From: Alphaproteobacteria bacterium
Lineage (GTDB): Bacteria; Pseudomonadota; Alphaproteobacteria; Bin65
Direction: 5' to 3'
Assembly (NCBI GenBank): GCA_021776685.1
Contig: JAJFFJ010000044.1
Location: forward strand, 1 to 64,000
DNA length: 64,000 bases
Positions 51,921 to 64,000 of this stretch are shown piece after piece (position 1 is the first letter of the stretch; the number at the start of each line of letters is the position of its first letter). The translations under genes were made by a program, and so were the position numbers. The notes beneath the pieces were generated by a model. That model was not told the origin of the DNA. It made no database searches and saw only the letters and a list, made by a program, of their open reading frames with translations.

Positions 51921-53042
51921 TTAGGCCGAGCCCCACACGTCCGCGGCGACCTGGTGCATCAGGTCGATCTTCCGCCGGGTAGCGTCCGGGTCGATCACCT
52001 GACCGCTGCCACCACCGGACGAGAAACCACATTGCGGGCTGAGTGCCAGCCGCTCCACCGGCACGAATTTGGCGGCTTCTTCGATACGGCGTTTCAGCTC
52101 GTCGGCGGTTTCCAGTTCCGTGGTCTTGGTGCTGACCAGGCCAAGCACCACGGACTTGTCTGCCGGCATATGGCGCAGCGGCTCGAAGTCGCCTGCGCGC
52201 GGCGAGTCATACTCCAGGAAAAAGGCGTCGATGTTGAGGCCATTGAAGACCTGCTCGGCGATGGGCTCATAGCCTCCCTCCGCCATCCAGGCGCCCTTCA
52301 GGTTGCCGCGGCACATGTGCATGCCCACGAACATGTTGTCCGGCCGTGTGCTGATGGCGTCGTTGATCAGGCTGACATACCGGTCCGTCAATCCGTCCGG
52401 ATCTTCGCCGCGGTCGCTGACGCCCTGACGCACACCGTCATCGCAATTGCAGGGCAGCGCGGTCTCGTCGAGCTGGAAATAGGTACAGCCGGCAGCCGCC
52501 AGTCCGTCGATTTCCTGCTGATAGATTGCCGCCAGGTCCGTGTAATATTCTTCGATATCGGGATAGACCTGATCATCCACTGCTCTCGGGCCCAGAAAGA
52601 AGTGCATCACGGGCGGTGAGGCGACCGTGACCTTGGGCGTCGCGGTGGTGACCTTACTCTTGATGTAATTGAAGTCGTCCAACACGATCGGCTTGTTCCG
52701 CCGCAGCTTTTCCTTGGCGTAGGGCGAAGAAGCGACCCCCCAGTCGCCGATCTTTTCGTCCTTGAATCCGGCGACCCCTTCTTCGCGAAGGCCAAAGCCA
52801 GAGACAGCATCGATGAAGCCGGCGGACCAGCTGCGACGGCGAAACTCGCCATCGGTCACGGACTGGAGCCCGGCGCTTTCCTGAAACGCCACAACCTCCT
52901 CAATGCATGCGTCCTGAACCGTGTGGAAGTCTTCGTCGCTCATCTCGCCTTTGCGGTTGGCACGCGCAGCCTCAAGCAAACGGTCAGGGCGAATGAAGCT
53001 GCCGATATGCTCGACGCGAAATGGTGGGGTCACGATATCCAT
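51921..53042 (-). CDS. Cobalamin-independent methionine synthase C-terminal-like protein
   Basis: A 373-residue zinc enzyme of the UROD/MetE-C fold, without the N-terminal half of true MetE. Predicted zinc ligands are His242 and Cys244 (GMHMCRGN), Glu277 (FFLEYDS) and Cys338 (SPQCGFSS). The N-terminal EHIGSFIRPDRLLEAAR segment is typical of this stand-alone group. Its members transfer methyl groups between thiols or corrinoids and various donors, or have other roles. The gene is first in an operon with a PaaK-like ligase. Confidence 0.87.
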   Translation of the reverse strand: MDIVTPPFRVEHIGSFIRPDRLLEAARANRKGEMSDEDFHTVQDACIEEVVAFQESAGLQSVTDGEFRRRSWSAGFIDAVSGFGLREEGVAGFKDEKIGDWGVASSPYAKEKLRRNKPIVLDDFNYIKSKVTTATPKVTVASPPVMHFFLGPRAVDDQVYPDIEEYYTDLAAIYQQEIDGLAAAGCTYFQLDETALPCNCDDGVRQGVSDRGEDPDGLTDRYVSLINDAISTRPDNMFVGMHMCRGNLKGAWMAEGGYEPIAEQVFNGLNIDAFFLEYDSPRAGDFEPLRHMPADKSVVLGLVSTKTTELETADELKRRIEEAAKFVPVERLALSPQCGFSSGGGSGQVIDPDATRRKIDLMHQVAADVWGSA

Positions 53043-56343: not shown

Positions 56344-56500
56344 GTATTTCCGCCCTCTTGAGGCAATTGCCATATCTCCGGAAAGCCCCCTGAATCACGG
56401 CAGTCAAGGTAAGGCACCACCTGTTGTCACCCGCCTGTTGTCACCCATCTGGGGCCAACCTACATTGCGCGGTCCCGATACGCATGGAAGGGAGGCCGGC

Positions 56501-57712
56501 ATGGTGACGCCAATTGCCATCGACCCCGCTGACTTCGACCTCGCCAATCCGCAGAGGGAATATCTGCTCAATCCATTCCCGACCTATGCGCGGCTGCGGG
56601 AAGAGAGTCCGGTGCACTGCAATCCTGACGGCACCTATTTCGTCACCTGCTTTGAGGAGGTGGCCGAGGTCCTGCGCAGCAAGGATATGAGCTCGGACAA
56701 GGAAACGCAGATGGTGGCGCGTTTCGGGCGCGATGCTGCGATTACCGAGCACAATCTCAATGTCATGGTCTTCGTCGACCCGCCGGACCACACGCGGCTC
56801 CGCAAGCTGGTGTCCCACGCGTTCACCAACCGGGCCCTGGCCCGTTGGGAGCAGGTGGTCGAGAATGTGGTCGAGCGGTTGCTCCGGGAAAACCTCGATC
56901 AGGGCGGCGAAATGGATCTGATCGGCGACTTCGCCTACATCCTGCCGCTCACCGTGATCGGCGAGATGATGGGCGTGCCGACCGGCGACCGCGAGCGATT
57001 CTCCCGGTGGTCATGGATGGTCACAGCGTCCCTCGAGCCGAGCGCCGGCCCGGAACTGGTGGCAGAGGCCAACGCGGCGGTCAACGACTTTAAGTCCTAT
57101 CTGGGCGCGCTGGCAGAAGAACGGCGCAGGCGGCCGGGAGACGACCTCATCTCGCTCTTGGTCCAGGCGGAGGAGGATGGCGAACGGCTGGGCGAACTTG
57201 AGTTGCTGCACAATGCGGCCTTCCTCCTGAATGCCGGACACGAAACCACCTCCAACCTGATCGGCAACGGCGTCAATGCGCTGTTCGAGAATCCTGACCA
57301 GATGGAATTGCTGCGCGATAACCCGGAACTGGCGGAGAGCGCAGTAGAAGAGATGCTGCGGTATGACAGTCCCAACCAGATCGGCGGCCGGCTGCCGACC
57401 AAGGACGTGACGTTCCGGGACACCACGATCCCCGCGGGCACCTTCATCTGGATCTCGAATGGTGCGGCCAATCGGGATCCGTCAGCGTTCCCGGAGCCAG
57501 ACCGATTCGATATCCGCCGCACGCCGAACAAGCACGTGGCCTTCGGCCATGGCATACACCTGTGCCTTGGCGCTGCGCTGGCGCGAATGGAGGGCAGAGC
57601 AGCCATCCGCCGACTGGTTTCAAACTATCCAAATCTGCGACCGGGCGGCGAGCCCGAGCCACGCATGCGCGCCCGTCACCGTGGCTTCAAGAAATTTCCG
57701 ATTGCGGCGTAG
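56501..57712 (+). CDS. Cytochrome P450 (class I bacterial type)
   Basis: A 403-residue soluble P450. The haem motif FGHGIHLCLG (residues 348-357) gives ligand Cys355. The I-helix oxygen-activation motif AGHETT is at 245-250 and the K-helix ExxR at 284-287. The length and the PPDHTRLRKLV segment are typical of CYP107/CYP108-like bacterial enzymes. No ferredoxin or reductase gene is adjacent, so electron partners must come from elsewhere. ATG 56501 is fixed by AGGGAGG. It probably hydroxylates or O-demethylates a substrate imported by the divergent TRAP system; that link is inferred. Confidence 0.95.
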   Translation: MVTPIAIDPADFDLANPQREYLLNPFPTYARLREESPVHCNPDGTYFVTCFEEVAEVLRSKDMSSDKETQMVARFGRDAAITEHNLNVMVFVDPPDHTRLRKLVSHAFTNRALARWEQVVENVVERLLRENLDQGGEMDLIGDFAYILPLTVIGEMMGVPTGDRERFSRWSWMVTASLEPSAGPELVAEANAAVNDFKSYLGALAEERRRRPGDDLISLLVQAEEDGERLGELELLHNAAFLLNAGHETTSNLIGNGVNALFENPDQMELLRDNPELAESAVEEMLRYDSPNQIGGRLPTKDVTFRDTTIPAGTFIWISNGAANRDPSAFPEPDRFDIRRTPNKHVAFGHGIHLCLGAALARMEGRAAIRRLVSNYPNLRPGGEPEPRMRARHRGFKKFPIAA

Positions 57713-57783: not shown

Positions 57784-58827
57784 TTAACCGGAATGCCCGG
57801 CGCTTGCCCCGCCCGCTTCCGCTTTTATCAACCCGTCCATGATTTTGCGCGCCGCCGCATTGCCGGCATCGCAATTGACAGTCAGAAGCGGACGGCCGCT
57901 CTGGTCGCTGTCAATCAACTCCTGCTGGGTTTCGAGAATGTCCCGGTCTTCCTCAAAGGTGTTGATGATCTGCTTTCGGATCATCTCACCAAGTTCCTCG
58001 TCGTCCTGGCTGAAGCAGCGGGATACCGACCAGAAGTAATGTGTGCTGTCCGCCCGTTCCGGCGTCAGCGCATTCAGGACCATCCAGTTCATTGATTCAG
58101 GGTTGGTTGCCGTGTCCATCTCGGTTCCCGTGGGCACGCCACCGGCATCAATGGTGATGTGGGCGGGCGGGTTGAACCGGATGCGCTGCCAGCGGTCAAT
58201 ATTGGTCGTGAATCCCCGGGCCCGTTTGAACAAGGGCGGCGGATCGCAATCGATCATCAATCGCTCGATCAGCACATTCTCGCCGTCGACCCGGGTATCC
58301 ATGGGTGTGTGGGCGACGGCCTGATTGCCGATCGTCGCCTGATGCACGTAGGTCTCGTGGGTCAGGTCGAGCAGATTGTCGACGACCAGCTGATAGTTCG
58401 CACCGAACGTCAGGTAGCCCATGATCGGCGCCCAGCCGGGCGCGTCGTTCCAGTGATAATCGGGGATCAGATCCTCATCTGCCTCTGACGGCTCTCCCAT
58501 CCAGACCCATATCCAGCGGTGTTTCTCGGCGATTGGATAGACGCGGGCCTTGAGGCGCGGCGGGATGTTGTCCTGACCCGGCACAAAGGTGCAGACGCCC
58601 GAACAGTCGAACTTCATGCCGTGATAGCCGCATTGAACCTCATCCCCGACAAGCTCGCCTTTGGACAATGCGAACTTCCGGTGAGGACATCGATCCTCTA
58701 ACGCGACGGGCGTGCCATCTTCCTTGCGGTACATGACCAATGGTTCATCGCAGATCCAGCGCCCAAGCAAGCCGCGGCCCAATTCTTCCGCCGACGCCGC
58801 CACATACCAGCTGTTTTTCAGATACAT
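57784..58827 (-). CDS. Rieske non-haem iron oxygenase (VanA-like O-demethylase family)
   Basis: A 347-residue oxygenase. The Rieske cluster is bound by Cys47, His49, Cys66 and His69 (CPHR and CGYHG). The mononuclear iron is bound by His157 and His162 (DLTHETYVH), with Asp150 bridging in VVDNLLDL. This form resembles vanillate O-demethylase and dicamba-type monooxygenases rather than two-subunit ring dioxygenases. ATG 58827 is chosen because the Rieske fold starts there (MYLKNSWYVA); an upstream in-frame extension lacks homology. No reductase subunit is adjacent. Confidence 0.93.
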   Translation of the reverse strand: MYLKNSWYVAASAEELGRGLLGRWICDEPLVMYRKEDGTPVALEDRCPHRKFALSKGELVGDEVQCGYHGMKFDCSGVCTFVPGQDNIPPRLKARVYPIAEKHRWIWVWMGEPSEADEDLIPDYHWNDAPGWAPIMGYLTFGANYQLVVDNLLDLTHETYVHQATIGNQAVAHTPMDTRVDGENVLIERLMIDCDPPPLFKRARGFTTNIDRWQRIRFNPPAHITIDAGGVPTGTEMDTATNPESMNWMVLNALTPERADSTHYFWSVSRCFSQDDEELGEMIRKQIINTFEEDRDILETQQELIDSDQSGRPLLTVNCDAGNAAARKIMDGLIKAEAGGASAGHSG

Positions 58828-58910
58828 GCCGGCCCCCAATTGCCGAATTCCCGTGTATTGAACCTTATGAACCGAACTACCAACGTCCACAGTAGGACTG
58901 TACAGGTTTC

Positions 58911-58923
58911 TATAGATCAATAG
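58911..58923. promoter_or_regulatory. Candidate shared operator, copy 2
   Basis: TATAGATCAATAG, part of a near-palindrome CTATxGATCxATAG, in the 154-bp gap between the divergent Rieske and di-iron-protein genes. It resembles the site at 56331-56343 near the P450 promoter. Confidence 0.4.
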
Positions 58924-58981
58924 AATAATTCAAAGCAGGGTTCAGGTAGGAGCCTGGACCAGCAAGGGTGAGGGAGCAAAC

Positions 58982-59800
58982 ATGATCATCACAGACCGGC
59001 TGCGCGATCTGATCGACCGGGCGGCAATTTTCTGGGCGGCGGAAGCAGAGACCTGCCGCACCTATTTCCAGTCGCCGGATCGGACCCGCGAATCCGACCG
59101 TGCCTGGCTGGCCAAGCAGTGTTTCAAGGAAGTCTGGGGGTCAGGGCTCACCGCCAAGGGCGATGGCGGCGCCATGCTGCAGGAATTCTCCAAGCGGCTG
59201 ATCGACATGTTCCCGAAGATCGATGTCGATGTGGACCGGCGCGAGGCGCTGGAGATTGCCGAGGCCCTGCACGAGGAGTTCGAGCACTATTGCCTGTTCG
59301 CCGATGCGTACGACGCCATGGCTGTTGACGGCGAAGCCAAGCTGACGCCCATGGTGCTGCGCAACCACGACTGGAAGGGCGATGATGATCTCTCTGAGCT
59401 TCGCCGCCAGCATCGTTCGGAGCATGGCGAGCTTGGATGGCGGTCGACCCGATTCACGGAGGGCGGCTATTGCACCATCCTGTCAGAGGGCGCCGCGCTC
59501 GCTGCCGACCCTGACGGCCATGACGGTCGCAACCGCTTGATCGCCGAGGCCAGCCAACCGGTCTATGACGACGAATTCCTGCACATGCTCTATGGCATCG
59601 GGAGCATCGAGGAGAACCCGTTGAGCGATGCGGAGTGGAAGCTGTTCAGCGACCTGGCGTTGGCACAGCTTCGCCTGCGCGCGCCCATGCGCAACGAGCA
59701 GTTTGGCTTCCCGGTCAGCGATGACCGGATGACCGCGATGCTGAACGGCGACATCGAGCCTATCGTCTTCGACTATGATCGCGCCAAGCTGGCGGCCTGA
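58982..59800 (+). CDS. Unrecognised protein with paired ferritin-like di-iron motifs (putative di-iron oxygenase)
   Basis: A 272-residue protein that I cannot match to a named family. Two half-sites are visible: Glu68, 29 residues, Glu98-Glu99-Phe-Glu-His102; and Glu169, 27 residues, Asp197-Glu198-Phe-Leu-His201. This E-X(27-29)-[DE]-E-X2-H repeat is the ligand pattern of ferritin-like di-iron carboxylate oxygenases such as AurF. Surrounding segments are helical. No signal peptide. The gene is first in an operon with a 4,5-dihydroxyphthalate-decarboxylase-like protein and is divergent from a Rieske oxygenase. A role as an extra oxygenase, or as an N-oxygenase, is plausible but unproven. Confidence 0.75.
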   Translation: MIITDRLRDLIDRAAIFWAAEAETCRTYFQSPDRTRESDRAWLAKQCFKEVWGSGLTAKGDGGAMLQEFSKRLIDMFPKIDVDVDRREALEIAEALHEEFEHYCLFADAYDAMAVDGEAKLTPMVLRNHDWKGDDDLSELRRQHRSEHGELGWRSTRFTEGGYCTILSEGAALAADPDGHDGRNRLIAEASQPVYDDEFLHMLYGIGSIEENPLSDAEWKLFSDLALAQLRLRAPMRNEQFGFPVSDDRMTAMLNGDIEPIVFDYDRAKLAA

Positions 59801-59812
59801 GGGAACATACAT

Positions 59813-60823
59813 ATGAGCAAACTGCCGCTGACGATTGCGTGCTGGGACTATGACCGGGTACGCGGTCTGATGGACGGGCGCGTGCCGGTGGACGGCTGCG
59901 ACGTCAACTTTCTGCCGCTGGGGGTAGAGGAGACCTTCTTCCGCGCCTTCCGTCACGCAGAGTTCGATGCCTGCGAGCTGTCCTTCAGCACCTATCTCAT
60001 GAACATGGCGCGGGAACGGGACGAAGGCATTCCTTTCCCCTATATCGCCATGCCTGTGTTCATCAGCCGGGTGTTCCGTCATTCCGGAATCTACATCCGG
60101 ACCGACAGGGGCATTTCCGGCCCCGACGATCTGAAGGGCCGCACAGCGGGCGTGCCGGAATACCAGATGACTGCGGCCGTCTGGATCCGCGGCATCCTGG
60201 AGCACGAATACGGCGTCACACCGGCAGACATGAAGTGGGTCAACGGCGGGCTCGAAGAGTCGGGGCGGATCGAAAAGACGCCGCTCACCCTGCCTGCAGG
60301 GGTGGAGATGAACTCCATCGGTCCCGACAAGACCCTTTCCGATTTGCTCGAATCAGGCGAGCTGGATGTGCTGGTCACGGCACGCGCGCCGTCCTGCTAC
60401 GACCGGGGGGCGCCGAATGTGGGTCGCCTGTTCCCCAATTTCGGTGATGTGGAACGGGCCTATTACAAGAAGACCGGCATCTTCCCGATGATGCACGTGG
60501 TCGGCGTGAAAAAGAGCCTGCTGGAAGAGCACCCCTGGGTCGGCGCCTGCCTCTACAAGGCTTTCATCCAGGCCAAGAAGCTGATCATGCCGGAACTGAC
60601 GGAGGTGGCAGCCCTGAAGATCAGCCTGCCGTGGGTAGCGCAGGAGACCGAGGACACAATGGCTCTGATGGGCAAAGACTTCTGGCCCTATGGCGCCGAA
60701 GACAACAAGGTCTCGCTCGGCGCCTTCCTCGACTACCACTATGATCAGGGGCTCTCCGGCAAGCAGAAGTTCACCCCGGAAGACATCTTCATCCCCAGCA
60801 CGCTGGAGCGTTTCAAGGTTTAG
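59813..60823 (+). CDS. 4,5-dihydroxyphthalate decarboxylase-like protein (periplasmic-binding-protein fold)
   Basis: A 336-residue protein of the family named after phthalate-pathway 4,5-dihydroxyphthalate decarboxylase: LTIACWDYDRVRGLMDGRV, FFRAFRHAEFDACELSFSTYLM, FRHSGIYIRTDRGISGPDDLKGRTAGVPEYQMTA and LPWVAQETEDTMALMGKDFWPYG. The fold resembles SsuA-type binding proteins but there is no signal peptide, supporting a cytosolic enzyme. Members decarboxylate hydroxylated aromatic acids; many are uncharacterised. It lies 12 bp after the di-iron protein, suggesting that the two act consecutively. Confidence 0.85.
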   Translation: MSKLPLTIACWDYDRVRGLMDGRVPVDGCDVNFLPLGVEETFFRAFRHAEFDACELSFSTYLMNMARERDEGIPFPYIAMPVFISRVFRHSGIYIRTDRGISGPDDLKGRTAGVPEYQMTAAVWIRGILEHEYGVTPADMKWVNGGLEESGRIEKTPLTLPAGVEMNSIGPDKTLSDLLESGELDVLVTARAPSCYDRGAPNVGRLFPNFGDVERAYYKKTGIFPMMHVVGVKKSLLEEHPWVGACLYKAFIQAKKLIMPELTEVAALKISLPWVAQETEDTMALMGKDFWPYGAEDNKVSLGAFLDYHYDQGLSGKQKFTPEDIFIPSTLERFKV

Positions 60824-60868: not shown

Positions 60869-62050
60869 ATGAGAGGTAATTTCCTCAAGGACAAAGACGT
60901 CTGCATCGTCGCCTATGCGGAGACCAAGCTTGAGCGGCGTTCAGGAAGGACAGCCTACGAGCTCTCGGCGGAGGTCGCGGAAGCCCTCTATAAAAAGATC
61001 AAGATGGGTCCGTCCGACATCGACGGCGTCAGCACGACAATTCCAATGAGCGAGGCGGCCAACCCGTTCTGGGCAAACTATTGCACCGACTATCTTGGCC
61101 TTCAGCCGCGTTGGCTGCAGACCACCGACCTGGGAGGTGTCTCCCATACCGGCAACGTGGCCCGTGCCGCCATGGCCCTTCAAAACGGCTGGTGTGACAC
61201 GGTTATGCTGCTCGCCGCGGACGCGCCAACCACGGCATGGAGCGCGAACTACCATGCCTATCACGACGAGTTTCTGGACCCGACCGGTCTGCAGGGACCG
61301 CCTGGCGCCTTCGGCTTCATCATGGACAGGTATGCGGCGCAGCATGACCTGGACTATCGCGGCCTCGGCGCGCTGGCGGTCGCTCAGCGCAACGGGGCGG
61401 TCGCCAACAAGAATGCCTGCGAGCAGCTGCGCGAGAAAATCACGGTCGACGACTATCTCAATTCGCGCGTGATCTCCTCGCCACTCCGGCTTCTGGATTG
61501 TGTCATGCCCTGCGATGGAGCGAGCGGGCTGGTGATGATGAAGACCAGCCGCGCGCGGCGGTTGGGATTCACGAAACGCGTATATCCGTTCGCCTATTCC
61601 GAGATCACGAATTTCAATGTTGCCAGCCAACAGCCCGACATCACCCAGACTGGCCATACGGTCGTTGGACCGGAAGTACTCAAGATGGCCAAGATGAAGC
61701 CCGGGGACGTGGACATGTTTCACCCCTACGACGACTTCCTGATCGCGGTGGCCATGAAACTTGAGCAGATCGGCTTCTGCAAGACCGGCCAGGGCACGCA
61801 GTTTTTGCGCGACACCAACATCGGGCCAAAAGGCACCCTGCCGATCAACACCGGCGGGGGGCAGATCAGCGCCGGCCAGCCTGCTCTGGCGGGCGGGCAA
61901 CTCAACCTTGTCGAAGCGGTCCGTCAACTGATGGGCGACGCCGGCCGGCGGCAGGTGAAGAACGCGCGCAACGCCCTCGTCACCGGCATTGGCGTCATCC
62001 CCTATGGCCGGAACTGGGGCTCGTCGAGCGCCCTGGTCCTGCAGAACTAG
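60869..62050 (+). CDS. Thiolase/SCP-x-like protein lacking canonical catalytic residues
   Basis: A 393-residue thiolase-fold protein of the type paired with OB-fold (DUF35) partners. The region where thiolases carry the nucleophilic Cys reads DLGGVSHTGNVARAA, without Cys, and the C-terminal GHP motif is changed to SAGQPALAGG, without the His. In Ltp2-type aldolases a thiolase-like chain with a DUF35 partner performs retro-aldol cleavage of an acyl-CoA instead of thiolysis. The same may apply here, giving chain shortening in a CoA pathway, but the reaction is unproven. The OB-fold gene follows after 9 bp. Confidence 0.82.
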   Translation: MRGNFLKDKDVCIVAYAETKLERRSGRTAYELSAEVAEALYKKIKMGPSDIDGVSTTIPMSEAANPFWANYCTDYLGLQPRWLQTTDLGGVSHTGNVARAAMALQNGWCDTVMLLAADAPTTAWSANYHAYHDEFLDPTGLQGPPGAFGFIMDRYAAQHDLDYRGLGALAVAQRNGAVANKNACEQLREKITVDDYLNSRVISSPLRLLDCVMPCDGASGLVMMKTSRARRLGFTKRVYPFAYSEITNFNVASQQPDITQTGHTVVGPEVLKMAKMKPGDVDMFHPYDDFLIAVAMKLEQIGFCKTGQGTQFLRDTNIGPKGTLPINTGGGQISAGQPALAGGQLNLVEAVRQLMGDAGRRQVKNARNALVTGIGVIPYGRNWGSSSALVLQN

Positions 62051-62059
62051 ACCGGAAGG

Positions 62060-62497
62060 ATGGGCTCAAAGATGACCAGGAACGCCACCCCCCGCCCGGT
62101 GCCCGTGCCAACGCCGATGACGCAGCCCTTCTGGGACGGCGCAAAGAAAAGAAAACTGATGCTGCAATACGATCCGTCGACCCGGACGTATCAGTTCTGG
62201 CCTCGTGCCTGCAGTGTCCAGACTGGTAAGCGGAACCTTGAATGGAAGGAAACCTCAGGCAAAGGCGCGGTTTATGCCTCCACCATCACCTATGTGCCCG
62301 CCGCCGGCTTCGAGGGTAAAGGACCATACGTTCTGGGTCTGATCGACCTTGATGAAGGTGTCCGGATCATCGGTAACGTGATAAACGTGGAACCGGAAGA
62401 TGTTGCGATTGGCATGCGGGTCAAAGTCGCCTGGGAAAAACTGTCGGAAGACATCAACTACTTCGCGTTTGAGCCCGACAAGGCACGTCGCAAATAG
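62060..62497 (+). CDS. OB-fold (DUF35) partner protein with degenerate zinc ribbon
   Basis: A 145-residue DUF35-family protein. The N-terminal helix (MTQPFWDGAKKRKLMLQYD) and the OB-fold half (KGAVYASTITYVPAAGFEGKGPYVLGLIDLDEGVRIIGNV) are typical. The rubredoxin-like zinc ribbon that usually has four Cys is reduced to one (PRACSVQTGK). It should bind the thiolase-like protein encoded just upstream and may shape its acyl-CoA site. A second ATG at 62072 could be the true start. Confidence 0.82.
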   Translation: MGSKMTRNATPRPVPVPTPMTQPFWDGAKKRKLMLQYDPSTRTYQFWPRACSVQTGKRNLEWKETSGKGAVYASTITYVPAAGFEGKGPYVLGLIDLDEGVRIIGNVINVEPEDVAIGMRVKVAWEKLSEDINYFAFEPDKARRK

Positions 62498-63118: not shown

Positions 63119-63246
63119 GTGCGCGGTGATCCAGCGCGCTCGTTAACCCTGCCCTCCAAATCTCCTGCGCCATGCGCCATTTACAAGGCATATTGCGGCC
63201 CCATGTGCTAGGCTGCCGCAAAAATAACGGCCTGCGGGAGGACATA

Positions 63247-64000
63247 ATGGACGGCAGTCAGATTACCCTCGACGACCTGAGCAACGCGCCGGATCTCGAT
63301 ACGCTGACCGAGCGGTTGGCCGCCAAGGGCATGACCCCTGGCTGGATTCCGCGCGAGCAGCCGATCCTCTGGCCTGAGCCTAGCACCGACTTCACACCGG
63401 CACATTGGAAGTGGGGCGAGTGCAGGGCCGCGATGGATGGTGCTGGCAAGCTGATCGGCACCGATCTGGCCGAGCGCCGCAACCTCATTCTCCGCAACCC
63501 GGTAGAAGGCAACGACGTCGCCACCGCGCGAACCCTGGTCAACGCCTATCAGACGATCCTGCCGGGCGAGGAAGCTCGCTCCCACCGCCACGCGCCTCAT
63601 GCCTTGCGCGTGATCCTGGAATCAGAGGGCGCATGGTCGGTCGTTAACGGCGACAAGCACCCCATGAACACCGGCGATATCGTGTTGACCCCGGGCTGGT
63701 GCTGGCACGGCCACGGCCATGACGGCCAGGACCAGGCTTATTGGCTGGACGGCCTTGATGTGCCGATGGTGCACCTGATGGAGCCGATGTTTGTCGAAGA
63801 ACACCCGGACGGCATGGAGCCGATTGAAAAGACCACGTCCGACTCGCCGTACCGCTTCACCTGGGACATGACCCAGTCGAAGCTGGACAAGGCGACACCG
63901 GACCCGGACGGATTTTTCGGCCGGCGCATCGCCTACGACACGTCGGACTCCATGCCCACAATCGGCATCTATGTGCAGCGCTGGGACGCCGGGTTCCAGG
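63247..64000 (+). CDS. Gentisate 1,2-dioxygenase-like bicupin, 3' truncated by window
   Basis: The frame is open from the ATG at 63247 to the window end; about 251 residues are visible. GGGAGG upstream supports the start. The first cupin has metal ligands His113 and His115 (RSHRHAPHALRVILE) and His154 (WCWHGHGHDG). The N-terminal DLDTLTERLAAKGMTPGWIPREQP-type stretch, WKWGE and the later YDTSDSMPTIGIYVQRW segment resemble gentisate 1,2-dioxygenase and 1-hydroxy-2-naphthoate dioxygenase. These Fe(II) enzymes cleave the ring between a hydroxyl and a carboxyl-bearing carbon. It supports aromatic catabolism in this cluster. The second cupin lies beyond the window. Confidence 0.9.
   Translation, partial: MDGSQITLDDLSNAPDLDTLTERLAAKGMTPGWIPREQPILWPEPSTDFTPAHWKWGECRAAMDGAGKLIGTDLAERRNLILRNPVEGNDVATARTLVNAYQTILPGEEARSHRHAPHALRVILESEGAWSVVNGDKHPMNTGDIVLTPGWCWHGHGHDGQDQAYWLDGLDVPMVHLMEPMFVEEHPDGMEPIEKTTSDSPYRFTWDMTQSKLDKATPDPDGFFGRRIAYDTSDSMPTIGIYVQRWDAGFQ

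Follow-up and report, generated by a model that had tools for sequence, protein, structure and literature searches.

ADO and MiaE are ferritin-like di-iron enzymes whose metal ligands follow the order E, ExxH, E, ExxH. The proteins of unknown function gathered in Pfam DUF455 (PF04305) are ferritin-like as well. The heme-oxygenase-like (HO-like) di-metal oxidases use a 3H/3C (or 3H/4C) ligand set and carry an Hx3[DE]x2H motif on core helix 3 (PMC13108848, PMC11611611), which in AetD consists of H172/E176/H179 (PMC11611611). Here we describe a gene from an alphaproteobacterium (assembly GCA_021776685.1) that probably encodes a new oxygenase for aromatic breakdown; its family is new and has no name, while the type of enzyme is a familiar one. 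The gene lies in a stretch of 64,000 nucleotides of contig JAJFFJ010000044.1, called the window below.

Judged by its ribosome-binding-site-like sequence, by 67 aligned sequences and by relatives that are 25-54% identical, the open reading frame is a real gene (Table 1). When 84,980 species genomes were scanned, 68 loci with relatives came to light, distributed over Proteobacteria, Binatia/deltaproteobacteria, Myxococcota and Chloroflexi. Two clades can be told apart, a near one (Proteobacteria, Chloroflexi and Myxococcota) and a far one made up of 15 Binatia/deltaproteobacterial sequences. The family is rare: of 337 genomes sampled from the window's class, 5 carry it. Five loci (L007, L008 and L044-L046) come from metagenome-assembled genome records whose titles name Klebsiella, Bordetella, Rhizobium or Kuenenia, and these organism names are probably wrong.

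Table 1. Features of the gene, its candidate ligand codons and its neighbours, in window coordinates
Feature	Position	Strand	Evidence or remark
Cytochrome P450, neighbour; shared system uncertain	56438..57712	+	PF00067
Divergent neighbour, a Rieske oxygenase of the VanA / dicamba O-demethylase type	57784..58920	-	PF19112, PF00355; 3gb4 E 3.5e-56
GAGGGAG, RBS-like sequence, 5 bases 5' of ATG	58970..58976	+	read directly
Putative di-iron oxygenase ORF, 272 aa	58982..59800	+	homologues, alignment, model pLDDT 93
E50 codon, candidate ligand on helix before ExxH; takes the place of E68	59129..59131	+	67/67
E99-x-x-H102 codons, candidate ligands	59276..59287	+	67/67; aligns with DUF455 ExxH
E160 codon (TEGG motif), candidate ligand; takes the place of E169	59459..59461	+	67/67
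D197-E198-x-x-H201 codons, candidate ligands E198 and H201	59570..59584	+	67/67; aligns with DUF455 [DE]ExxH
4,5-Dihydroxyphthalate decarboxylase homologue	59813..60823	+	9jp7 E 1.8e-92 over 335 residues
Thiolase-like protein	60869..62050	+	PF22691
OB-fold acyl-CoA-associated protein (ChsH2/DUF35)	62060..62497	+	PF01796
Gentisate 1,2-dioxygenase-like cupin, extends beyond the window to contig base 64227	63172..64000	+	TIGR02272 E 2.1e-70, below its cut-off

The original prediction drew attention to two E-X(27-29)-[DE]-E-X2-H half-sites, and the pattern E-X(27-31)-[DE]-E-X2-H is indeed present exactly twice in the protein, from residues 68 and 169. When the window protein was shuffled 20,000 times, two [DE]ExxH motifs arose in 0.5% of cases; the duplicated pattern alone is suggestive and would count as modest evidence, and it is conservation in the alignment that carries the case. 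An alignment of 66 sequences was built by the alignment tool and a parallel one of 67 was used for the invariance counts. Four of the six predicted ligands (E99, H102, E198 and H201) are invariant in all 67 sequences. The first glutamate proposed for each half-site proved wrong: E68 is kept in 8 of 67 sequences and E169 in 48, versus all 67 for E50 and E160. The ligand set that emerges, E50, E99xxH102, E160 and E198xxH201, is invariant throughout, with the spacing of both ExxH pairs fixed, versus a mean column identity of 37% in the 66-sequence alignment. Q46, K49, R141, G161, G162, D197, R233, M236 and R237 are also invariant in all sequences. The distance from E50 to E99 varies between 31 (in the shortest member, L047) and 52 owing to an insertion after E50, which corresponds to a lower-confidence stretch (residues 51-70) of the window-protein model. 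E21 in the first helix (codon 59042-59044) is a glutamate in 66 of 67 sequences and is an alternative candidate for the first glutamate ligand. Taken at the level of the alignment, E50, E99xxH102, E160 and E198xxH201 are well supported as a metal site with a ferritin-type 4-carboxylate/2-histidine ligand set.

Database searches with the window protein gave little. No Pfam or NCBIfam family was matched at E up to 1, and searches of the PDB returned noise only, with the single sequence as with the 66-sequence profile; matches to alpha-tocopherol transfer protein, CHMP1A and designed bundles were set aside as such. Nothing was found in PHROGs or, by tblastn, among the PLSDB plasmids, and literature searches on DUF455 and on di-iron proteins with gentisate or 3-hydroxyanthranilate brought up no paper on this family. 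The window protein itself has no DUF455 match in the Pfam search. Fifteen family members singly match DUF455, with a best E of 4.1e-7, and the ten relatives examined score 24.7 bits at most, below the gathering cut-off of 34.3; in relatives examined singly, what is matched is either the E/ExxH hairpin or the final ExxH helix. When profiles were compared over the matched regions only, residues 72-209 of the family aligned with DUF455 at E 3.1e-5, and the two ExxH pairs of each came to lie in register (E 1.7e-4 for an over-extended alignment). In the far clade, the invariant glutamate of the KE pair (E50) aligns with the glutamate of the DUF455 'HIE', 32 residues before the DUF455 ExxH. DUF455 in turn aligns with MiaE at E 4.9e-4. 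Direct profile comparisons of the family were not significant with MiaE (0.19) or the PaaA/PaaC set (E 0.22), and gave E above 0.1 with the HO-like families Haem_oxygenas_2 (HO2) and TenA. These negatives mean little, and those for HO2 and TenA are not counted as evidence, because the known pair HO2-TenA, used as positive control, was itself missed (0.47). The profiles thus suggest that the family is weakly and indirectly kin to ferritin-like families, via DUF455 to MiaE.

AlphaFold2 models of the window protein (pLDDT 93) and of the far-clade member L066 (pLDDT 89) are both helical bundles. With either model, Foldseek gave no match below E 0.001; its leaders were TenA, UndA, BesC, CADD and PolF, at TM 0.3-0.6. 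VIA-align Z scores were 13.3-13.5 for TenA, 11.9-12.8 for CADD and about 11.5 for UndA (11.3 being the lowest of this group), compared with 10.2 and 12.5 for ADO in the two models and 11.5 for MiaE. Such values lie near the level of common helical-bundle arrangements, and the models would not by themselves choose between fold classes. The di-iron reading of the original prediction is upheld in outline by the invariant E, ExxH, E, ExxH order, the DUF455 link and the structural matches to ADO and MiaE; its ferritin-like part is tentative, because HO-like folds score equally well or better.

A rival reading, which we consider unlikely, is that the protein has a heme-oxygenase-like fold and works as the HO-like di-metal oxidases UndA, BesC, SznF and AetD do, carrying out oxidative decarboxylation, C-C cleavage or N-oxygenation at a 2-His/4-carboxylate site where the usual third histidine gives way to a glutamate of the helix that precedes core helix 1. 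Foldseek TM scores are indeed higher for TenA (0.55-0.60), UndA (0.55) and BesC (0.56) than for ferritin-like proteins (0.33-0.42), SznF likewise uses a glutamate ligand (E189) of auxiliary helix 2, and the E99-E160-E198 spacing (61, 38) resembles that of D76-E140-E176 in AetD (64, 36; PMC11611611). The Hx3[DE]x2H motif is absent, however: all 67 sequences have Val or Ile at position 194. In addition, the profile comparison brings no signal to HO-like families, with the caveat of its failed control; no Foldseek match falls below E 0.001; and the VIA-align Z scores of TenA, ADO and MiaE differ by no more than 1-2. A mixed reading seems to us about as doubtful: the family would have a heme-oxygenase-like fold around a di-iron site of the ferritin type (2-His/4-carboxylate), in which the glutamate of helix A is retained and the third histidine is missing. 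Such a family would link the two large classes of helical di-iron oxygenases as a living intermediate, and would be tied to aromatic catabolism and not to natural-product synthesis.

It is quite improbable, in our view, that the protein is ferritin-like but no oxygenase at all, for instance a ferroxidase, a peroxidase-type protective protein or a manganese or zinc protein, handling iron or peroxide near oxygenase genes. Weak rubrerythrin matches in four members (best 0.006) and the numerous oxygenase genes close by would fit such a role, whereas the invariant R141, R233 and R237 suggest an anionic ligand, and the tight coupling of one specific ring-cleavage gene throughout a whole clade (see below) also speaks against it. 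That the pattern arose by chance in an unrelated, metal-free helical protein is very hard to credit: shuffling does occasionally produce both motifs and no curated family is matched, but six residues remain invariant in a family of such low mean identity.

The genomic setting is consistent with aromatic catabolism. As originally described, the gene stands between a Rieske oxygenase, here divergent, and a decarboxylase-like gene, here a same-strand 4,5-dihydroxyphthalate decarboxylase homologue; beyond the window end, the gentisate-dioxygenase-like cupin is followed by another Rieske gene of the VanA type and by genes for an SDR-like protein and a UbiD. The clustering of P450, Rieske and di-iron genes within 3.4 kb is correct as a distance (3363 bp) and less remarkable than it had seemed. 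The genome (4.5 Mb) is unusually oxygenase-rich, with 46 Rieske domains in all and 11 matches to the PaaA_PaaC family, and the adjacent Rieske gene is therefore weak evidence alone. One of the PaaA matches contains an internal TAG. Elsewhere in the window (51921-53042), a MetE-like (PRK06520) protein adjoins a CoA ligase and a TRAP transporter, and similar MetE-like genes are seen also further along this contig, downstream, and close to the relative L170; these recurring genes are perhaps methyl acceptors for O-demethylation.

Neighbours of the relatives were called with a composition-scored gene caller at 70 loci, some of which are short contigs and several of which come from the same genera, so that loci are not independent. 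All 15 far-clade loci have a 3-hydroxyanthranilate dioxygenase (3-HAO) gene within 240 bp, and four near-clade loci have one at a distance of 5.3-5.8 kb. In the Defluviicoccus loci L018, L021, L028 and L034, a 3-HAO homologue lies about 5.5 kb away, and a molybdopterin hydroxylase, a cupin and an amidohydrolase accompany it. Across the 70 loci we counted Amidohydro_2 (14), Rieske (8), UbiD (7) and dihydroxyphthalate-decarboxylase homologues (6). At least one tested aromatic-catabolic class was present within 5 kb in 34 of 70; because about half of the loci have no such genes in that range, the neighbour argument is not family-wide, and aromatic catabolism is likely the setting for about half of them. 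The order di-iron gene, decarboxylase, gentisate-like cupin is found again in L003/L171, and the divergent Rieske/di-iron pair in L027, at 43-44% identity.

A linked reductase was seen in one locus among the 70, L169, where a BenC-type reductase lies 242 bp from the di-iron gene with a PaaA-like gene beside it. The same segment (L169:10954-15379) groups the di-iron gene with this BenC/MmoC-like reductase, with an aldehyde-dehydrogenase-like gene and with the PaaA-like di-iron protein, which has no PaaC next to it. In 8 of 70 loci a methyltransferase gene stands directly upstream of the di-iron gene. This methyltransferase-like gene (L045, 5438-7080; L022, L040, L043, L044 and L046-L048) has a conserved 'WYHG' stretch and sometimes overlaps the di-iron gene. 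UbiG with COQ7 is a comparable methyltransferase/di-iron pairing, of which this arrangement is reminiscent by analogy.

Our preferred explanation, held with moderate confidence, is that these proteins form an uncharacterised family of carboxylate-bridged di-iron oxygenases that hydroxylate an aromatic acid, or its CoA thioester, before ring cleavage. Its direct basis is the invariant ligand set, the distant ferritin-like kinship, the high-confidence helical model and the recurrent aromatic-catabolic neighbours; from these we infer the iron, the activation of O2, the aromatic hydroxylation, the class of substrate and the role of the arginines. In such an enzyme, a helical bundle would hold two irons through E50, E99, H102, E160, E198 and H201, and the reduced iron pair would react with O2 to give a peroxo-diferric species. 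Oxygen would then be placed on the aromatic acid or thioester, with R141, R233 and R237 holding the substrate. The ring would thereby be made ready for cleavage by the cupin dioxygenases of the neighbourhood, and decarboxylases would act close by. An NAD(P)H reductase, in most cases encoded elsewhere, would supply the electrons.

If this is right, uncultured bacteria of soil, groundwater and the sea break down aromatic compounds with the help of a whole family of O2-activating enzymes that has no name and no Pfam or NCBIfam profile. Hydroxylation chemistry would gain a new scaffold, and a common origin of heme-oxygenase-like and ferritin-like di-iron enzymes could be tested with the aid of the family's ligand set.

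Among known systems, the PaaA and BoxB-type aromatic-CoA oxygenases are also di-iron enzymes of aromatic-acid catabolism, and one relative (L169) has a PaaA-like gene at a distance of two genes, but the family has no profile match to the PaaA/PaaC set. With the HO-like di-metal oxidases (CADD, UndA, BesC, AetD and SznF) it shares a helical bundle of similar size (Z 10-12.8) and the order ExxH, E, [DE]xxH, but none of the 67 sequences has their defining motif: the third histidine is missing and the invariant E50 is added, giving a 4C/2H set versus 3H/3C (PMC13108848). DUF455 comes closest in profile, with both ExxH pairs superposing and the far-clade helix-A glutamate aligning too, although the members examined singly score below the gathering threshold, the third-helix glutamate does not align cleanly, and the window genome holds a separate true DUF455 gene. 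MiaE and aldehyde-deformylating oxygenase differ from the family in its extra N- and C-terminal helices, its genomic setting and the missing direct profile match to MiaE, but share with it the ligand order E, ExxH, E, ExxH and structural Z scores of 10-12.5.
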